Of a stretch of 45,154 nt of DNA, positions 20,524 to 27,548 are shown one piece after another (the stretch's first letter is position 1; every line of letters begins with the position of its first letter). The stretch is from Candidatus Desulfaltia sp. (lineage in GTDB: Bacteria > Desulfobacterota > Desulfobacteria > Desulfobacterales > ETH-SRB1). Location: contig JAUSPN010000077.1 in the NCBI GenBank assembly GCA_030656555.1, positions 1 to 45,154 of the forward strand, given 5' to 3'. Made by a program: the position numbers and the translations under genes. The notes beneath the pieces are model-generated. The model saw nothing but the letters and a program-made list of their open reading frames with translations, was not told where the DNA came from and made no database searches.

Positions 20524-21120
20524 TTGAAAATGAAAAAATGTGGGCCCATGAAAAATATTTTCAGGGATAATTCAGATCAGGATTTGATCAAAGCTATCGG
20601 CAATCGGAATCATCAGGCATTTGAACGCATAGTAAATCGGTATAAGAAGCCAATCTATAATTTCGTTTACAGATACCTCCAGGACCATTTTTCAGCCGAA
20701 GAGGTGGTCCAGGAGCTTTTTCTGAGAGTTTATAGAGCCGCCCCGAAATATAAAGCCGTAAATAATACAAAAGCATCTACCTGGATATTTAAAATAGCTT
20801 TTAACCTTTCCATGAACGAATTAAAGCGTCGCAAGCGTCATTTGCGTTTGATGGGAGATAGAGTTGTTGAAAGAGAAATGTTTGCAGAGACGAAGACTCC
20901 CGGAGCTGTTGAAGACAAGGAAATAACAGAAAGCATTATGTCAGGTGTGCGTCTGCTTCCAGAGAAGCAGAGAGCAGCTTTGCTTCTTCGGGTGCAGCAA
21001 GGATTTTCTTACCTGGAAATCAGCGAGATTTTAAACACCACTGTCTCAAGCGTTGAATCTTTGATTTACAGGGCGCGTCAGCGCCTGAAACAATATGTCA
21101 ACATGGAACATAAGGAGTAA
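20524..21120 (+). CDS. ECF-type RNA polymerase sigma factor
   Basis: The 198-residue protein has sigma-70 region 2 at ~20-105 (RYKKPIYNFVYRYL, EEVVQELFLRVYRA, STWIFKIAFNLSMNELKRR). Region 4 lies at ~140-190 (LPEKQRAALLLRVQ, FSYLEISEILNTTVSSVES). It lacks regions 1 and 3, as extracytoplasmic-function factors do. TTG at 20524 and ATG at 20530 are both possible; GAGG spacing slightly favours TTG. It is followed by an anti-sigma gene and a Spy/ZraP-like gene, the usual layout of an envelope or metal stress response. Confidence 0.92.
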   Translation: MKMKKCGPMKNIFRDNSDQDLIKAIGNRNHQAFERIVNRYKKPIYNFVYRYLQDHFSAEEVVQELFLRVYRAAPKYKAVNNTKASTWIFKIAFNLSMNELKRRKRHLRLMGDRVVEREMFAETKTPGAVEDKEITESIMSGVRLLPEKQRAALLLRVQQGFSYLEISEILNTTVSSVESLIYRARQRLKQYVNMEHKE

Positions 21121-21124
21121 TATT

Positions 21125-21532
21125 TTGAATTGCCTAAAAATTAAAGAAAAAATTTCCTCTTACATGGATAATGAGCTCGATTCAGAGCAATCCAGATACG
21201 TGGATCAACATCTTTTGCACTGCCGGGTGTGTCGAGAAGAATTAAAGATTTTGCAGCAGGTGGATGCAGATGTCAAAGAGATACCGGCCTACGGCCCGTC
21301 AGCCCAATTTTCCGCACGGCTTATGCAGCGGATTGCAAAAGAAGCAGCTTTGCCTGAAAAAGATGGTTTTACATATAATATATTTATACATCCTGTTAAA
21401 TTCTTTGAAAAATTTTACAACCTTCTTAATTCACAATGGGTTTCAACAACCGCTACGCTTGATGAGTTTGGTGATTTTCCTCCCTGCTCAATTAGTTATA
21501 TTTATTTCAAACTCCTTGCCACAAAACAATGA
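21125..21532 (+). CDS. Zinc-finger (zf-HC2) anti-sigma factor
   Basis: This 135-residue protein begins NCLKIKEKISSYMDNELD. The HxxxCxxC zinc site follows (HLLHCRVCREEL at ~36-47), the pattern of ZAS-type anti-sigma factors that sequester ECF sigmas. The remaining C-terminal half shows only weak hydrophobicity, so a clear transmembrane anchor is lacking, which is unusual. TTG at 21125 is chosen because AAGGAG stands directly upstream and the annotated motif starts at once. An earlier ATG at 21095 lies inside the sigma gene without a ribosome site. Confidence 0.82.
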   Translation: MNCLKIKEKISSYMDNELDSEQSRYVDQHLLHCRVCREELKILQQVDADVKEIPAYGPSAQFSARLMQRIAKEAALPEKDGFTYNIFIHPVKFFEKFYNLLNSQWVSTTATLDEFGDFPPCSISYIYFKLLATKQ

Positions 21533-21541
21533 GGTTAAACC

Positions 21542-22009
21542 ATGCTGATTTTATATTTTGTCTTTGGATGTTTTACCGCAATTATTATAATGGCCATTAT
21601 TTTGGCTGTTATTTATTCTATTTTGAAAAAGAAACGAACAGAGCAGGCAAATATCAGGGGATATCTGGACTTGATTTCCGACCTTACAGAAACGCAAAAG
21701 AGCCAGGTTGAATCAATTCGCCGCAGTTTTTTGCCCAGAGTGGAAGAGACTCGGAAGGACCTTTGTATTAAAAGAGCGAAGCTGGCAGATCTTCTGTTTT
21801 CCGAACCGATTGACAGGTCAAAAATAAATGAAACCTATAGAGAGATATTGCGGTACCAGTCAGAACTGGAAAGCGACGTTATCGATCATATCTTGGAGGA
21901 AAAGGAGCTACTGTCGCCATCGCAACAGAAAAGGTTTTACGAAATAATCGTTGATCAGTTTTCATCAGGCGGGTTGGGAGTTCATGATGTAAAGGGCAGA
22001 AAAGCTTAA
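21542..22009 (+). CDS. Membrane-anchored Spy/ZraP-like metal or stress sensor
   Basis: The 155-residue product has one N-terminal transmembrane helix (~3-29). A helical periplasmic domain with the heavy-metal-resistance (CpxP/Spy/ZraP) pattern follows: LTETQKSQVESIRRSFLPRV, then LLFSEPIDRSKINETYREI, then LSPSQQKRFYEII. The LxExQ and LSPxQ repeats are typical of these chaperone-like sensors. It is nine bases downstream of the anti-sigma gene. It would act in the same response, probably sensing or buffering metal or envelope damage; the ligand is not predictable. Confidence 0.78.
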   Translation: MLILYFVFGCFTAIIIMAIILAVIYSILKKKRTEQANIRGYLDLISDLTETQKSQVESIRRSFLPRVEETRKDLCIKRAKLADLLFSEPIDRSKINETYREILRYQSELESDVIDHILEEKELLSPSQQKRFYEIIVDQFSSGGLGVHDVKGRKA

Positions 22010-22058: not shown

Positions 22059-23126
22059 TTATTTTCTTCTCAATTGTTTTGAAACCTCTTTTGTCAAATC
22101 AAGTACCTTTATTGCCTGTTCTATCTTCAGTGAACCTGTTCCGCAACTCGGAGTTATAAGGGACTGTGCCAGTATTTGCGACCTGTCAATGCCAAGCAGC
22201 TCTATTTGATTGGCTTTATCCTCCCATTTTGACACCAGTGAATCAATTGTTTCCCTGTCAATATCTTCAGGATTTGAGGTCGGGACAATCCCCCATGCCA
22301 GGATGCGGCCTGAATCCATAAACCTCTTAATTTGCTCAGAGTAAAGAATGAACCTGTCAAAAAAGGAATAAGCATCAAAGCTGATAATATCTGCGGAAGA
22401 TTCCAGAACCAGCGACCAGTCGGCATTGGCGCAGACATGTATTCCAACAAGGCCGCCTTCGGAGTGTACTGCTTCAAAGGTTTCTTCAAAGCATTTTAAA
22501 ACCTCATCATGTGATATGCTGATAAAGGCAGATGAGCCGAATCCTGCAATGGCAGGCTCATCGAAAAAAATCATCACCGGATATTTGAATTGAGAAAGCT
22601 GTCTGACCTGCCATTTGCTTTTCATAGCCAATAGCTTTACGGCAGCGTCCCTTAGTTGGTTATTATAAAAAATAGCTCTTCCATTTTGGTCGTTTATGCC
22701 TGTGCAGAAAGTTATTGGGCCTGTGATTTGCCCTTTAACTGCAATTAAAGGATTTGAAAGCGTCCTGGTTTGTTTTATAAATTCAAAAAAACCCGCGGCT
22801 GTATAGTTTGTAAGGGCAAATCGCGACGATAAAAGATCGGCCCCGCCTTCGGTTATAGCTATATAATCTTCGTAGAAAGAAACAAGTTCATTATCAAAAT
22901 CATTGCCGGCAGTGTCTATAAATGATTTGTCATTTTCAGTGGTTAGACCGGGCATTCCAGGCAGAAATTGAGCCAGCATGCCTTCCTCTTTAAAAACAGG
23001 TAGTTGAACCCATAATGGTATTTCAGGGGTATATTTATAAACAAGCTTTATAGCTTCCGGGTGGTTGTCTATCGGAAGGCTTCCGATTAAAACCGGGAGA
23101 CAGTTTGCCTGAAAGTTTTTGATCAT
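22059..23126 (-). CDS. Core-MetE-like (UROD/MetE superfamily) methyltransferase
   Basis: This 355-residue TIM-barrel protein resembles the C-terminal, zinc-binding half of cobalamin-independent methionine synthase. Putative zinc ligands are H230 and C232 (GIHVCANADW) and C328 (LITPSCGTGSL), with E190 in FFDEPAI. The N-terminal half of full MetE is absent. Proteins of this short type can move a methyl group between a corrinoid or other donor and a thiol. Its start overlaps the stop of a B12-type radical SAM gene by four bases, so the two almost certainly work together. The substrate is unknown. Confidence 0.8.
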   Translation of the reverse strand: MIKNFQANCLPVLIGSLPIDNHPEAIKLVYKYTPEIPLWVQLPVFKEEGMLAQFLPGMPGLTTENDKSFIDTAGNDFDNELVSFYEDYIAITEGGADLLSSRFALTNYTAAGFFEFIKQTRTLSNPLIAVKGQITGPITFCTGINDQNGRAIFYNNQLRDAAVKLLAMKSKWQVRQLSQFKYPVMIFFDEPAIAGFGSSAFISISHDEVLKCFEETFEAVHSEGGLVGIHVCANADWSLVLESSADIISFDAYSFFDRFILYSEQIKRFMDSGRILAWGIVPTSNPEDIDRETIDSLVSKWEDKANQIELLGIDRSQILAQSLITPSCGTGSLKIEQAIKVLDLTKEVSKQLRRK

Positions 23127-24994
23127 TGTCTTTGTTCCTTTCTCAAAGGGCTCACTTTGATAGCAAGGCTTAAGTATCTATTATTTTCTTCGTATATCAA
23201 CCTTTTACTTCCCATCAGTTTTAAAAATTTTATAATCCTGTCTTCACCTATCTGCGGGAAATCAGCTATAATACGTTTTAGCGAACGGTTAGTCCGGCAA
23301 AAAAGGTAAATATTTCTGTAGATTCCGTTCACACGATGCGTCAGCGGATCCGCTCCCGGGCGTTTTTGACGGATGATCAAAAAATCGCCTCCGTCACGAA
23401 AGCTGAGAATCGGTGAGTTTGAAATACCTCTGTGGAGTTCGGCATACGACTTTTCCCAGGTTTTTACCTTTTTCTGAACAGGTTGCCACAATTTTTTCTG
23501 ATATACACGGTCCATTTTGAAAGACTGTATCATAAAAGTAATCGATTGAAAAACATCCGGTGGAAATAAAGCAGCATAGTTGGGGTGGTTAACAACCGCT
23601 GTAAGACCTGAGGCGTGCCGATTTTCCCAGGCAGGGCTTCCAAGGCCGAGCCAGAAGTTAACGACCCTTAATGGGCGAAAAGGAAATGCAAAATCAAGGG
23701 CGCGCAAGGTTTCCTTTACATCCATTATATCACTTCCTGGAAAGCAAAGAATCAGGTTTGATATGTCGGCAATGCCGAGCTCCTCGCAATGTTTCATTAC
23801 TTCCAGGTTTTTGATACAGGTAGTTCCTTTATTAAACTTTTTGAGAAGCCGCGTGCTTAATGCCTCTATCCCTATCTGTACATCTTCAACACCGGCTAAA
23901 CGCATGAGTTTTAACACCTCATATGACGTGTTTGCCCGTATTTCTGCAAACAGGCGCAGATCTTTGCCCAGTTTATGAAGGCCTGAAAATATTTCCTTGC
24001 TTTCCCTAAGCGGAACCAAATTGTCCATGAAGGCAACAGAGAGGGTTTTATACCTTTTTGTCAGATAGTCAATTTCAGAGGCAACCTGTCCGGCGTCCTT
24101 TTTTCTGTAGTTGTCCCACTGAAGGTTAAGATTGCAAAAAGCACAGCCTTTTTGCTTGCCCGATTTTCTTATAGATTTCCACCAGCAGCCTCTGGAAATT
24201 TCAGCGCACAAAGTCGGGAAAAAGGTTTTATCCGGTCTAAATGTTTTAAGCAAATCAAAGTAATCATCATAATCAGGTGAGGGCAGTGAGGTTAGATCCT
24301 TTATTTGATTAAATGAAACATCACCGATTATATTTGAGCCGTTTCTTGATACAAGTCCGGGAATAGAAGGTGTTTTACTGTTGCCGTCGGATTCCATTAA
24401 ATAACGGATTAATTCGGCTACAGGCAGCTCACCTTCGCCGCTAACCACATGGTCTATCTCGCTGAATGTCTCAAGCAGTTGATAGATCGTATCTCCGGTA
24501 AATATCGAGCCGCCCGTTACTATACGAAGATTCGGGAAGGTTTTTTTTATTTTTCTGATAAAATAAAGAGAAGATGTGAGTTGGCAAAGACAGATTGAAA
24601 AACCAGCGAGCCCGAATTTACCCCAGTCTATAGACTTTATCATGTTGTCGGATACTTCTTTGATCTCGGCTGTGAGCGCATCAAAGTCGGTTTTTTGAAG
24701 CACAGCATTGTTTTTTGCTTCGCGATAAAAAAACTTTTTAATTTCATTAATCCGTTCGGGAAACAGCAGAGCCGCATATATTGATTCCGCGGGCCATGTC
24801 CTTTCCGAAATTTCATGATAAAGTTTGTAGCCGATTCTTTCCGCTACCTTTAAATACAGGTGAAGAGCTTTTATTTGCAGATTCGGAAACCTGGATTTCA
24901 AATAGGCTTTTAATGCTCCAAGCTGAATCGATGGCCGGCTATAAAAGGGCCATGGAGTAGAAACTAAAACAATGGGTTTAGGGCGATCGGCCAT
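23123..24994 (-). CDS. B12-binding-domain radical SAM protein, RiPP C-methyltransferase-like
   Basis: This 623-residue protein has an N-terminal B12-binding-like Rossmann region (~8-195, with GFSICLCQL and RIVTGGSIFTGD). The radical SAM domain has cysteines C270, C284 and C287 (RGCWW...GCAFCNLN). The RGCWW...C.FC.LN signature recalls the RiPP-maturation C-methyltransferase group, but the first spacing here is CX13CX2C rather than the canonical CX3CX2C. A ~160-residue C-terminal part has winged-helix-like character (RSLKRIIADFPQIGEDRII). No precursor peptide gene adjoins it. The tight coupling with a core-MetE-like gene suggests a methyl-transfer pathway. Confidence 0.85.
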   Translation of the reverse strand: MADRPKPIVLVSTPWPFYSRPSIQLGALKAYLKSRFPNLQIKALHLYLKVAERIGYKLYHEISERTWPAESIYAALLFPERINEIKKFFYREAKNNAVLQKTDFDALTAEIKEVSDNMIKSIDWGKFGLAGFSICLCQLTSSLYFIRKIKKTFPNLRIVTGGSIFTGDTIYQLLETFSEIDHVVSGEGELPVAELIRYLMESDGNSKTPSIPGLVSRNGSNIIGDVSFNQIKDLTSLPSPDYDDYFDLLKTFRPDKTFFPTLCAEISRGCWWKSIRKSGKQKGCAFCNLNLQWDNYRKKDAGQVASEIDYLTKRYKTLSVAFMDNLVPLRESKEIFSGLHKLGKDLRLFAEIRANTSYEVLKLMRLAGVEDVQIGIEALSTRLLKKFNKGTTCIKNLEVMKHCEELGIADISNLILCFPGSDIMDVKETLRALDFAFPFRPLRVVNFWLGLGSPAWENRHASGLTAVVNHPNYAALFPPDVFQSITFMIQSFKMDRVYQKKLWQPVQKKVKTWEKSYAELHRGISNSPILSFRDGGDFLIIRQKRPGADPLTHRVNGIYRNIYLFCRTNRSLKRIIADFPQIGEDRIIKFLKLMGSKRLIYEENNRYLSLAIKVSPLRKEQRQ

Positions 24995-25024: not shown

Positions 25025-25906
25025 TTATTTATCCATGGATGGTTCTATGTGGATGGTGACATCCTTAATGCCATGGATTTTTTCTCTGATATCATCTTCG
25101 ACCAAATGGGCTATCGCGTGGGCCTTTTCTAAAGACGTATGGCGGTTGATATGACAATGCATGTCAATGTGGATATGTCCATCCCAGCCACGATTTCTTA
25201 CTTTGTGGCATTCTTCTATACCGTCTATACCCATAGCTATGGCTTTTATCTTTTTATCATCCACAGCTGCCGCATCGGTTAATATCGTGAAGTTTGATTT
25301 AAGGATCCCAATCGCGGCGTAACCGATGAATATACTGATTATAAATGCCATTATAGGATCGACGATCGGGTATCCCGCCCGAATGAATAAAAGACCGATT
25401 ATTACGGAAACAGTCGTAAAGATATCTGCTCCTGTATGGAGTGAGTCGGATATCAATATTTGACTTTTGAGCGCCTGGCCTCTTTTGCGTTCATACAGCA
25501 CAACGACAACATTAACTATCAAGGTAATAATCATTACCAGAAAGCTTGCCATGCCAATTTTGATCTGGACAGGATGCAGGAAGCGGTCTATTGAAGTGTG
25601 CAGAACGTTACAGCAAACCAGAAAGAGTAACATCGCAATTCCCAACGAGGTCAGGCTTTCATACTTTTCACGGCCATAAGGGTAGCGCTCATTTATAGGT
25701 TTGGAAGCCATCCATATGCCAAGCAGGCCGACAATATTAGATGAACCGTCAGAGAGTGAGTGATAGCCATCTGCCATGATGCTGGCGCTATTTGTCAAGT
25801 AACCATAAAAGATCTTGGCAGCCGCAACACCAAAGTTCAGGACCAGGATAATCCATAAAACCCTGCTGATCTTGCGAAATCTATCTTGTTCTACAATATG
25901 CTCCAT
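25025..25906 (-). CDS. Cation diffusion facilitator (CDF) metal transporter
   Basis: The 293-residue inner-membrane antiporter has six transmembrane helices. The zinc-site motifs are HSLSD in helix II (DGYHSLSDGSSN) and HTGAD in helix V (LHTGADIFT). The HxxxD pattern in both suggests Zn, Cd or Fe efflux rather than Mn. The cytoplasmic C-terminal ferredoxin-like domain is His-rich (HIHIDMHCHINRH), consistent with metal sensing. It lies 30 bases upstream of the radical SAM gene on the same strand. Confidence 0.94.
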   Translation of the reverse strand: MEHIVEQDRFRKISRVLWIILVLNFGVAAAKIFYGYLTNSASIMADGYHSLSDGSSNIVGLLGIWMASKPINERYPYGREKYESLTSLGIAMLLFLVCCNVLHTSIDRFLHPVQIKIGMASFLVMIITLIVNVVVVLYERKRGQALKSQILISDSLHTGADIFTTVSVIIGLLFIRAGYPIVDPIMAFIISIFIGYAAIGILKSNFTILTDAAAVDDKKIKAIAMGIDGIEECHKVRNRGWDGHIHIDMHCHINRHTSLEKAHAIAHLVEDDIREKIHGIKDVTIHIEPSMDK

Positions 25907-25975: not shown

Positions 25976-27397
25976 TCAGGAATGAATGGCTATCGTGGGA
26001 TAAAGGCCCTCAAGCGGTCCGCGTGGATATGGCTGTATAATATTAAAGGAGATATCCCGCCCCATCTGGGCATGACCTTTGTTTTTACTGCCGTCAAAAT
26101 ACGCTCCGTTTGCCTCCAGTATATGTTCAATCCGATCCCGGAAGGCTTTGACAAAGGATGATCCACTGCCCTTAAAATGCATTAAACCCCGGGAGAATTT
26201 CCCATTAACCCGGGAAAAGTCTTTAAGAAGAATACTGTGTTCTTTAACATCTTTTCGGTCTCTGATCAAGCCCCATACAAGATGCCCTGGAGGAATATCA
26301 AGGGGCTCTTTAAGGTCTATGATTGTGTGAGGCATTATAATGCTTTCTTTACCGATGGTCAAAGGACAATTCAAACTGCCCTGCAAAAACGAATTAAAAC
26401 CAACAAAAACTTTATTTTCAAGCTGCGCATGAATGATGTTAGCGCCGTGAGCGGTCACATTGTTTCCTGCAAGACGAGAATTAATAATATAACAGTTTTC
26501 CTGGGCGTTTGCTCCATCTCCGAGCCAGGCATTTTCAAGATATGCTCTCTGCGCAACAAGAACGTTTTTACCGACATGCGTCTCTCCTTTAACCACAGCA
26601 TATCTATTAATTGAGGCACAGTCAGAAATCTTGATTCGAGCCTTGAGATGAACAACAGCGAATAGTTTTTGAAAATCCTTTTTTCGATTTTCTGTAAAGT
26701 CGACAAAAATACCATGTGGTTTCTTGCCGGGCTCAAAAGCAATATAATTATTAAGGTCTTTAGAAGAAAAACGATAACTAAAATCAAATAGATCTTTATT
26801 GCTGATCAGGATCTGCCCTGGTTCAATCCGTTTATTAGACAATTCTCCTGTCTGTAGATAAGCATAAGCTCCGACAACACAATTATGAAGCGTTGTAAGA
26901 TCAACCGTGCTAAAGGGGCCCAAAAAACATCCATCCATAGGCGAACCATGAATGTTTGCATAATGCATGGATACTGTACTCAATATTGAAAACTCTTCAA
27001 GATTTTCCGGATTGTGAGAATAATTATGAACCAGGGTTTTAATGAGAAAACTGCCTTTAATTCTGATCACTTCATCGTCATACAGCACAATATCTGATCC
27101 CTGGTGATGAAATATATCTCCCTGGGCCTTTAGTTCATCTCCCCTGATATCGCTTTTATACAGGATCGAGTTTTCAACTGCGCATTTTCCAAGAAAATAG
27201 CTTCCCGCAAGGTTGGAGTGCCTGAAATAAAATCCAAGTGGATGAGATGATGTAATCCCGTAAAAAGCATAAAATTTGTTCATTTTATCCAAAGGGATAC
27301 ATTTTTGAATATACAAATCCGCATCAAATCCTTGTTTAAACAAGATAGCATTCATACGGCTTGCAATCTGACTGATGAGTTTCTCAAGCTGTTTCAT
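25976..27397 (-). CDS. Left-handed beta-helix (hexapeptide-repeat) protein of unknown function
   Basis: The ~473-residue protein has two runs of hexapeptide-like turns, about 60-210 (SNLAGSYFLGKCAVENSILYK) and 270-390 (ASINRYAVVKGETHVGKNV, NVTAHGANIIHAQLENKVF), as in acyltransferases and nucleotidyltransferase partners. No nucleotidyltransferase domain is present. The helical N-terminus and the C-terminal ~90 residues match nothing I recognise. ATG at 27397 is preferred over TTG at 27412; neither has a strong ribosome site. It heads the minus-strand run with the CDF, radical SAM and MetE-like genes. Confidence 0.7.
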   Translation of the reverse strand: MKQLEKLISQIASRMNAILFKQGFDADLYIQKCIPLDKMNKFYAFYGITSSHPLGFYFRHSNLAGSYFLGKCAVENSILYKSDIRGDELKAQGDIFHHQGSDIVLYDDEVIRIKGSFLIKTLVHNYSHNPENLEEFSILSTVSMHYANIHGSPMDGCFLGPFSTVDLTTLHNCVVGAYAYLQTGELSNKRIEPGQILISNKDLFDFSYRFSSKDLNNYIAFEPGKKPHGIFVDFTENRKKDFQKLFAVVHLKARIKISDCASINRYAVVKGETHVGKNVLVAQRAYLENAWLGDGANAQENCYIINSRLAGNNVTAHGANIIHAQLENKVFVGFNSFLQGSLNCPLTIGKESIIMPHTIIDLKEPLDIPPGHLVWGLIRDRKDVKEHSILLKDFSRVNGKFSRGLMHFKGSGSSFVKAFRDRIEHILEANGAYFDGSKNKGHAQMGRDISFNIIQPYPRGPLEGLYPTIAIHS

Positions 27398-27548
27398 ATT
27401 TGTTGATAGCAACTACCAAATTCAAATTTCAATCTAAATCCAAATCATTTTGATTAATCGTTTATGGTAATACTTCAACTGAGCGGAACGCTCAATCAAT
27501 GGTTATCGAAGGTCAAGGATCAGAAAGCTGATATGACCAGGTGCTACA

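Follow-up and report, generated by a model that had tools for sequence, protein, structure and literature searches.

An open reading frame for a B12-type radical SAM enzyme that runs into one for a MetE-like protein raises the question whether the two products act on a common methyl group or are separate enzymes that happen to be neighbours. The arrangement is found in the window, the whole stretch of 45,154 nucleotides of Candidatus Desulfaltia contig JAUSPN010000077.1 that was analyzed here; the closest named loci belong to Ca. Desulfaltia and to other Desulfobacterales MAGs. The upstream gene (ORF and profile match, positions 23123..24994, minus strand) encodes a 623-aa protein of the TIGR03975 family. 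Downstream lies an ORF on the minus strand (22059..23126), here called mesB, for a 355-aa protein comprising the MetE catalytic domain only. As the preliminary description had reported, both ORFs are present and have four bases in common, ATGA (23123..23126, minus strand), where the radical SAM gene stops and mesB starts. Upstream of the radical SAM gene, at a distance of 30 nt, lies a gene for a cation diffusion facilitator (CDF) transporter (25025..25906, minus strand; PF01545, 6.6e-48), and further upstream a hexapeptide left-handed beta-helix protein is encoded (25976..27412, minus strand; Pfam Hexapep_loop). The earlier identification of both neighbours was correct, but elsewhere in the genus the beta-helix gene is not conserved beside the pair. 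Convergent to the pair, three consecutive genes at window positions 20524-22009 encode an ECF-type sigma factor, a zf-HC2 protein (anti-sigma-type) and a member of the Metal_resist family, and may form a metal-stress unit.

The radical SAM protein was assigned using NCBIfam profiles and structure prediction. It matched TIGR03975 with 366 bits (cut-off 282), the match covering positions 1-606 of the 606 of the profile, and the same profile was matched by all 33 homologues at E <= 1e-20. The structural model, built from 48 sequences, had a pLDDT of 92, and its top Foldseek matches in the PDB were the B12 radical SAM enzymes OxsB, TokK, TsrM, CysS and MgmA; the predicted structure thus displays the B12 radical SAM fold, including the cobalamin-binding fold on which the initial reading depended. 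The cluster motif, RGCWW...GCAFCNLN with CX13CX2C spacing, is present as first described: C270-x13-C284-x2-C287 in RGCWWKSIRKSGKQKGCAFCNLN, encoded at 24134..24187 on the minus strand. Homologues keep RGCWW ... C-x-F-C-N-L-N-x-Q-W-x-x-[YF]-R constant, a single exception affecting WW, and the loop following the first cysteine varies from CX4 to about CX17. Since the spacing is a variable loop, its length of 13 is not a special feature and the idea of a special CX13CX2C cluster was rejected. An ORF of 3,078 aa fused to a homologue at locus L097 proved to be an artefact of masked N bases. Profile match and modelled fold point to a TIGR03975-family C-methyltransferase of the B12-dependent radical SAM type, C-methylation being the reaction predicted for it.

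The 355-aa protein was examined by alignment with 21 homologues. H230, C232 and C328, the His/Cys/Cys ligands noted at the outset, are invariant, as is D251, a fourth predicted MetE-type zinc ligand that had gone unnamed; S16 and D189, assigned by eye to homocysteine binding, are likewise invariant. The N-terminal, folate-binding half of MetE is missing, as had been stated. Both enzyme types were read correctly from the beginning. The protein had no match in Pfam, although Meth_synt_2 (PF01717) was matched by 6 of the 21 homologues, and in NCBIfam it matched the PRK00957 methionine synthase profile alone, weakly (1.8e-7). Foldseek matches 1-5 of its model in the PDB were MetE structures; the model, built from three sequences, had a pLDDT of 44, so these matches weigh as support only, and a profile search of the PDB with the MesB alignment found nothing. 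Ligand spacing and distribution both match MesB, the core methionine synthase of published kind, and the protein is annotated as a putative member of that family.

Such a pair, joined by a four-base overlap, had been interpreted as a methyl relay. In such a relay, the cobalamin of the radical SAM protein would receive its methyl group from, or lose it to, the MetE-like partner, and the pairing alone would have suggested a new way of charging radical SAM cobalamin. Comparative evidence removes this idea. Among 55 other genomes having both genes, they are adjacent in five, all Ca. Desulfaltia, whereas in six they share a contig at a distance of 49-549 kb and in 44 they are on different contigs. 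The lack of adjacency that the initial reading had named as counting against it is thus found outside the genus, the pair being unlinked in 50 of 55 genomes. Similarly, mesB occurred nearby in only two of 80 further radical SAM loci, again both from Ca. Desulfaltia. Sister genome G006, of the same genus, retains the radical SAM gene followed by a tauE-type gene as the next conserved gene; no mesB remnant was seen between the two, nor was any MesB match found in that genome, in which the CdhD match is weak (28-bit) and MetH-type and MetE sequences are present. LarE and ABC transporter genes, found near the pair in the window, also lie near the radical SAM gene of the sister genus (L067, L068), where mesB is located elsewhere. 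Most simply, the radical SAM gene was already resident when mesB arrived beside it in the Desulfaltia lineage, and G006 subsequently lost mesB.

The chemistry known for both enzyme types points the same way. MesB is thought to take a methyl group from the Wood-Ljungdahl corrinoid protein and to pass it to homocysteine (PMC7857596), so that its reaction runs from corrinoid to thiol, opposite to the direction that charging a cobalamin would take. PoyC is proposed to re-methylate its cobalamin from SAM (PMC5682303), and with SAM as the methyl source of PoyC-type enzymes a MetE-like donor is not needed. What speaks for a relay is the ATGA overlap, the persistence of the pair in each of the five relatives within the genus that have mesB, and co-occurrence across the phylum, where MesB was found in 43 of the 44 genomes that carry this radical SAM clade and in 159 of the 301 that lack it (p 3e-10, kinship not corrected for). 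Within the order, this co-occurrence was not significant (p 0.17), and the phylum-wide figure probably reflects a shared Wood-Ljungdahl lifestyle. Taken with the unlinked genes and the state of G006, we regard a methyl relay as extremely improbable.

Because the two genes lie side by side in one genus only, it is highly probable that the locus comprises two separately acting enzymes, brought together in Ca. Desulfaltia alone, and not a methyl-passing pair. One SAM would methylate the cob(I)alamin of the radical SAM protein, a second would yield the 5'-deoxyadenosyl radical at the iron-sulfur cluster, and the methyl group would then be transferred to an unactivated carbon in a peptide or protein whose gene lies elsewhere. 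MesB and the radical SAM protein would exchange no methyl group; at most, MesB would feed the SAM pool on which the other enzyme draws. In this scheme, we infer the methyl donor of MesB, the C-methylation reaction and the peptide or protein nature of the radical SAM substrate.

Some functional tie through expression was also considered, namely that co-expression of MesB with the radical SAM enzyme within the genus raises methionine and SAM levels although the proteins transfer no methyl group to one another. Gene order (CDF, radical SAM gene, mesB) is kept in the four other genomes of the genus with enough sequence while the outer flanks differ, so that some benefit of co-transcription is possible. 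The ATGA overlap recurs in L063 and L064, and the junction measures -1 nt in L062 and +5 nt in L066; a junction of -4 to +5 nt has accordingly been kept at 83-90% identity of the radical SAM proteins although the flanks changed. L062, L063, L064 and L066 have the CDF gene upstream of the radical SAM gene; L065, L067 and L068 do not. Against a supply operon, conservation of the pair is confined to the genus, the same stretch includes the CDF gene, which has no methyl role, and short divergence times can preserve proximity. A supply operon is on balance improbable, and two independent enzymes remain the preferred reading.

The role of MesB was examined further through its distribution. The family occurs in anaerobes with the Wood-Ljungdahl pathway and is apparently the sole methionine synthase in several genera, including Desulfatibacillum and Desulfobacca (Price 2021, PMC7857596). 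Among 58 relatives, the CoFeSP protein CdhD tracked mesB (43 of 48 genomes with mesB versus 3 of 10 without, p 2e-4) and MetH-type PF02574 proteins were anti-correlated with it (6 of 48 versus 7 of 10 at E <= 2e-60, p 5e-4; 12 of 48 versus 7 of 10 when any PF02574 match was counted, p 0.01), kinship not being corrected for in any of these comparisons. G004 and G005, two sister genomes of 97% completeness each, contain mesB and CdhD, and no PF02574 or PF01717 match was found in them, leaving mesB as the only methionine synthase candidate found in the two gene sets. CdhD is found in the window's own genome too. That genome also encodes a full-length MetE, a PF02574 protein and a second MesB-like paralogue; with MetE and the second MesB-like protein, MesB is not the sole candidate there. 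The MesB result supports annotating many Desulfobacterota proteins missed by Pfam as methionine synthases.

Several arrangements around mesB and its relatives were recorded. At L239 (G000:C94:38000-46000) and L240 (G007:C40:12000-22000), the gene for full-length MetE is clustered with those for a 475-aa protein and a paralogue resembling MesB. The 475-aa protein has a C-terminal PF02574 domain and an N-terminal part without a Pfam match; the G007 copy of the paralogue keeps the HCDC zinc set, and the G000 copy is shorter (218 aa). Outside the genus, mesB is followed by a gene for an AAA (MoxR-like) ATPase and one for a protein of ~396 aa without a Pfam match at 8 of 18 loci of the order (L089-L094, L096 and L099, from other Desulfobacterales families). 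To our knowledge, neither the ATPase nor the ~396-aa protein has a link to methionine synthesis. A conserved protein of 78-83 aa is encoded directly downstream of mesB in two genera (L062:9480-9731, L066:11413-11649, L081:9092-9328 and L082:7801-8049), the L062 copy having no match in Pfam.

MesB being of an already known kind, the point worth following is the radical SAM clade, which carries the NCBIfam name 'RiPP maturation' in a genomic setting unlike that of RiPP synthesis. TIGR03975 scores in the phylum sample formed an upper group of 576-662 bits and a lower one of 284-403 bits, separated by an empty interval, and in an unrooted tree the two were split at 100/100 support. The window protein and its orthologues belong to the lower group, a well-conserved clade present in 44 of 345 sampled Desulfobacterota genomes and usually as one copy per genome; the cultured strain Desulfoferrobacter suflitae DRH4 (L190) is among its carriers. 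In some genomes of the upper group, two or three copies lie close to one another. At L281:4486-5688, in another genome of the phylum, three tandem leader-peptide-type genes precede two canonical TIGR03975 genes in an apparent RiPP cluster. Around the lower-scoring clade, no neighbour recurred in more than 8 of 80 loci. Small ORFs near the pair were listed as candidate RiPP precursors and none recurs. No NHLP leader scored above the cut-off in the window's own genome or in 57 relatives, and no Nif11 leader was found in 20 genomes; the window's own genome lacks both leader types, in agreement with the initial remark that no precursor is visible.

Maturation of a RiPP whose precursor is an unusual short ORF encoded elsewhere would agree with the TIGR03975 score above the cut-off and with the C-terminal region of the model (residues 524-614), where three strands are followed by three helices and to which canonical members have a similar region. 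This is the order of elements in leader-binding RRE domains. C-terminal RRE fusions in proteusins have been noted by RRE-Finder (PMC7470986). Pfam and PDB profile searches of the domain gave no support for the C-terminal RRE hinted at by the order of secondary structure. The lack of NHLP and Nif11 leaders and of a recurring neighbour, and the separation of the clade from RiPP-type members, speak against RiPP maturation, which we consider rather unlikely. With no recurring neighbour and no leaders, the group was classed within the enzyme family as a clade apart from RiPP enzymes, and its substrate is probably a peptide or protein encoded elsewhere. Tentatively, and at somewhat less than even confidence, the clade may be a housekeeping, trans-acting C-methylase of a cellular protein in Wood-Ljungdahl sulfate reducers, comparable to MgmA in its action on methyl-coenzyme M reductase, and not a RiPP enzyme.

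Both proteins can be set beside characterized systems. For MesB, this is the core-MetE cbdbA481 of Dehalococcoides mccartyi, characterized by Deobald 2020 (PMC7005905) and modelled to bind zinc via His215, Cys217, Asp236 and Cys312; likeness was judged by the published ligand positions and spacing and by distribution. Both consist of the MetE catalytic domain alone and have the HCDC zinc set in common, with H-x-C (2) and 19 residues to Asp in each and the last Cys at 77 here and 76 in cbdbA481. His122, the proposed cobalt ligand of the Dehalococcoides enzyme, has no obvious counterpart in the 355-aa protein, and the MesB described here differs in adjoining a radical SAM gene (in one genus) and in being encoded in a genome that also has MetE.

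The radical SAM protein shares with the PoyB/PoyC type (TIGR03975, rSAM_ocin_1) the full-length domain, the RGCWW motif, the N-terminal B12 domain and the C-terminal region. It differs in the residues after the cluster, FCNLNxQWxxYRxK in the window clade and FCGLN or FCGL in most canonical members, in its profile score (284-403 bits for the clade, 576-662 for canonical members of the same phylum), and in belonging to a separate group that is usually single copy and without a RiPP cluster. MgmA is the glutamine methylase of methyl-coenzyme M reductase, a housekeeping enzyme. The B12 radical SAM fold is common to MgmA (PDB 9ccb) and the 623-aa protein, although the latter scored only 36 bits against TIGR04014, the NCBIfam family of MgmA, and these bacteria are not expected to have methyl-coenzyme M reductase. 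By analogy, MgmA is a possible model for the orphan radical SAM clade, and if the target is a cellular protein, the clade would be a bacterial counterpart of the methyl-coenzyme M reductase methylases.
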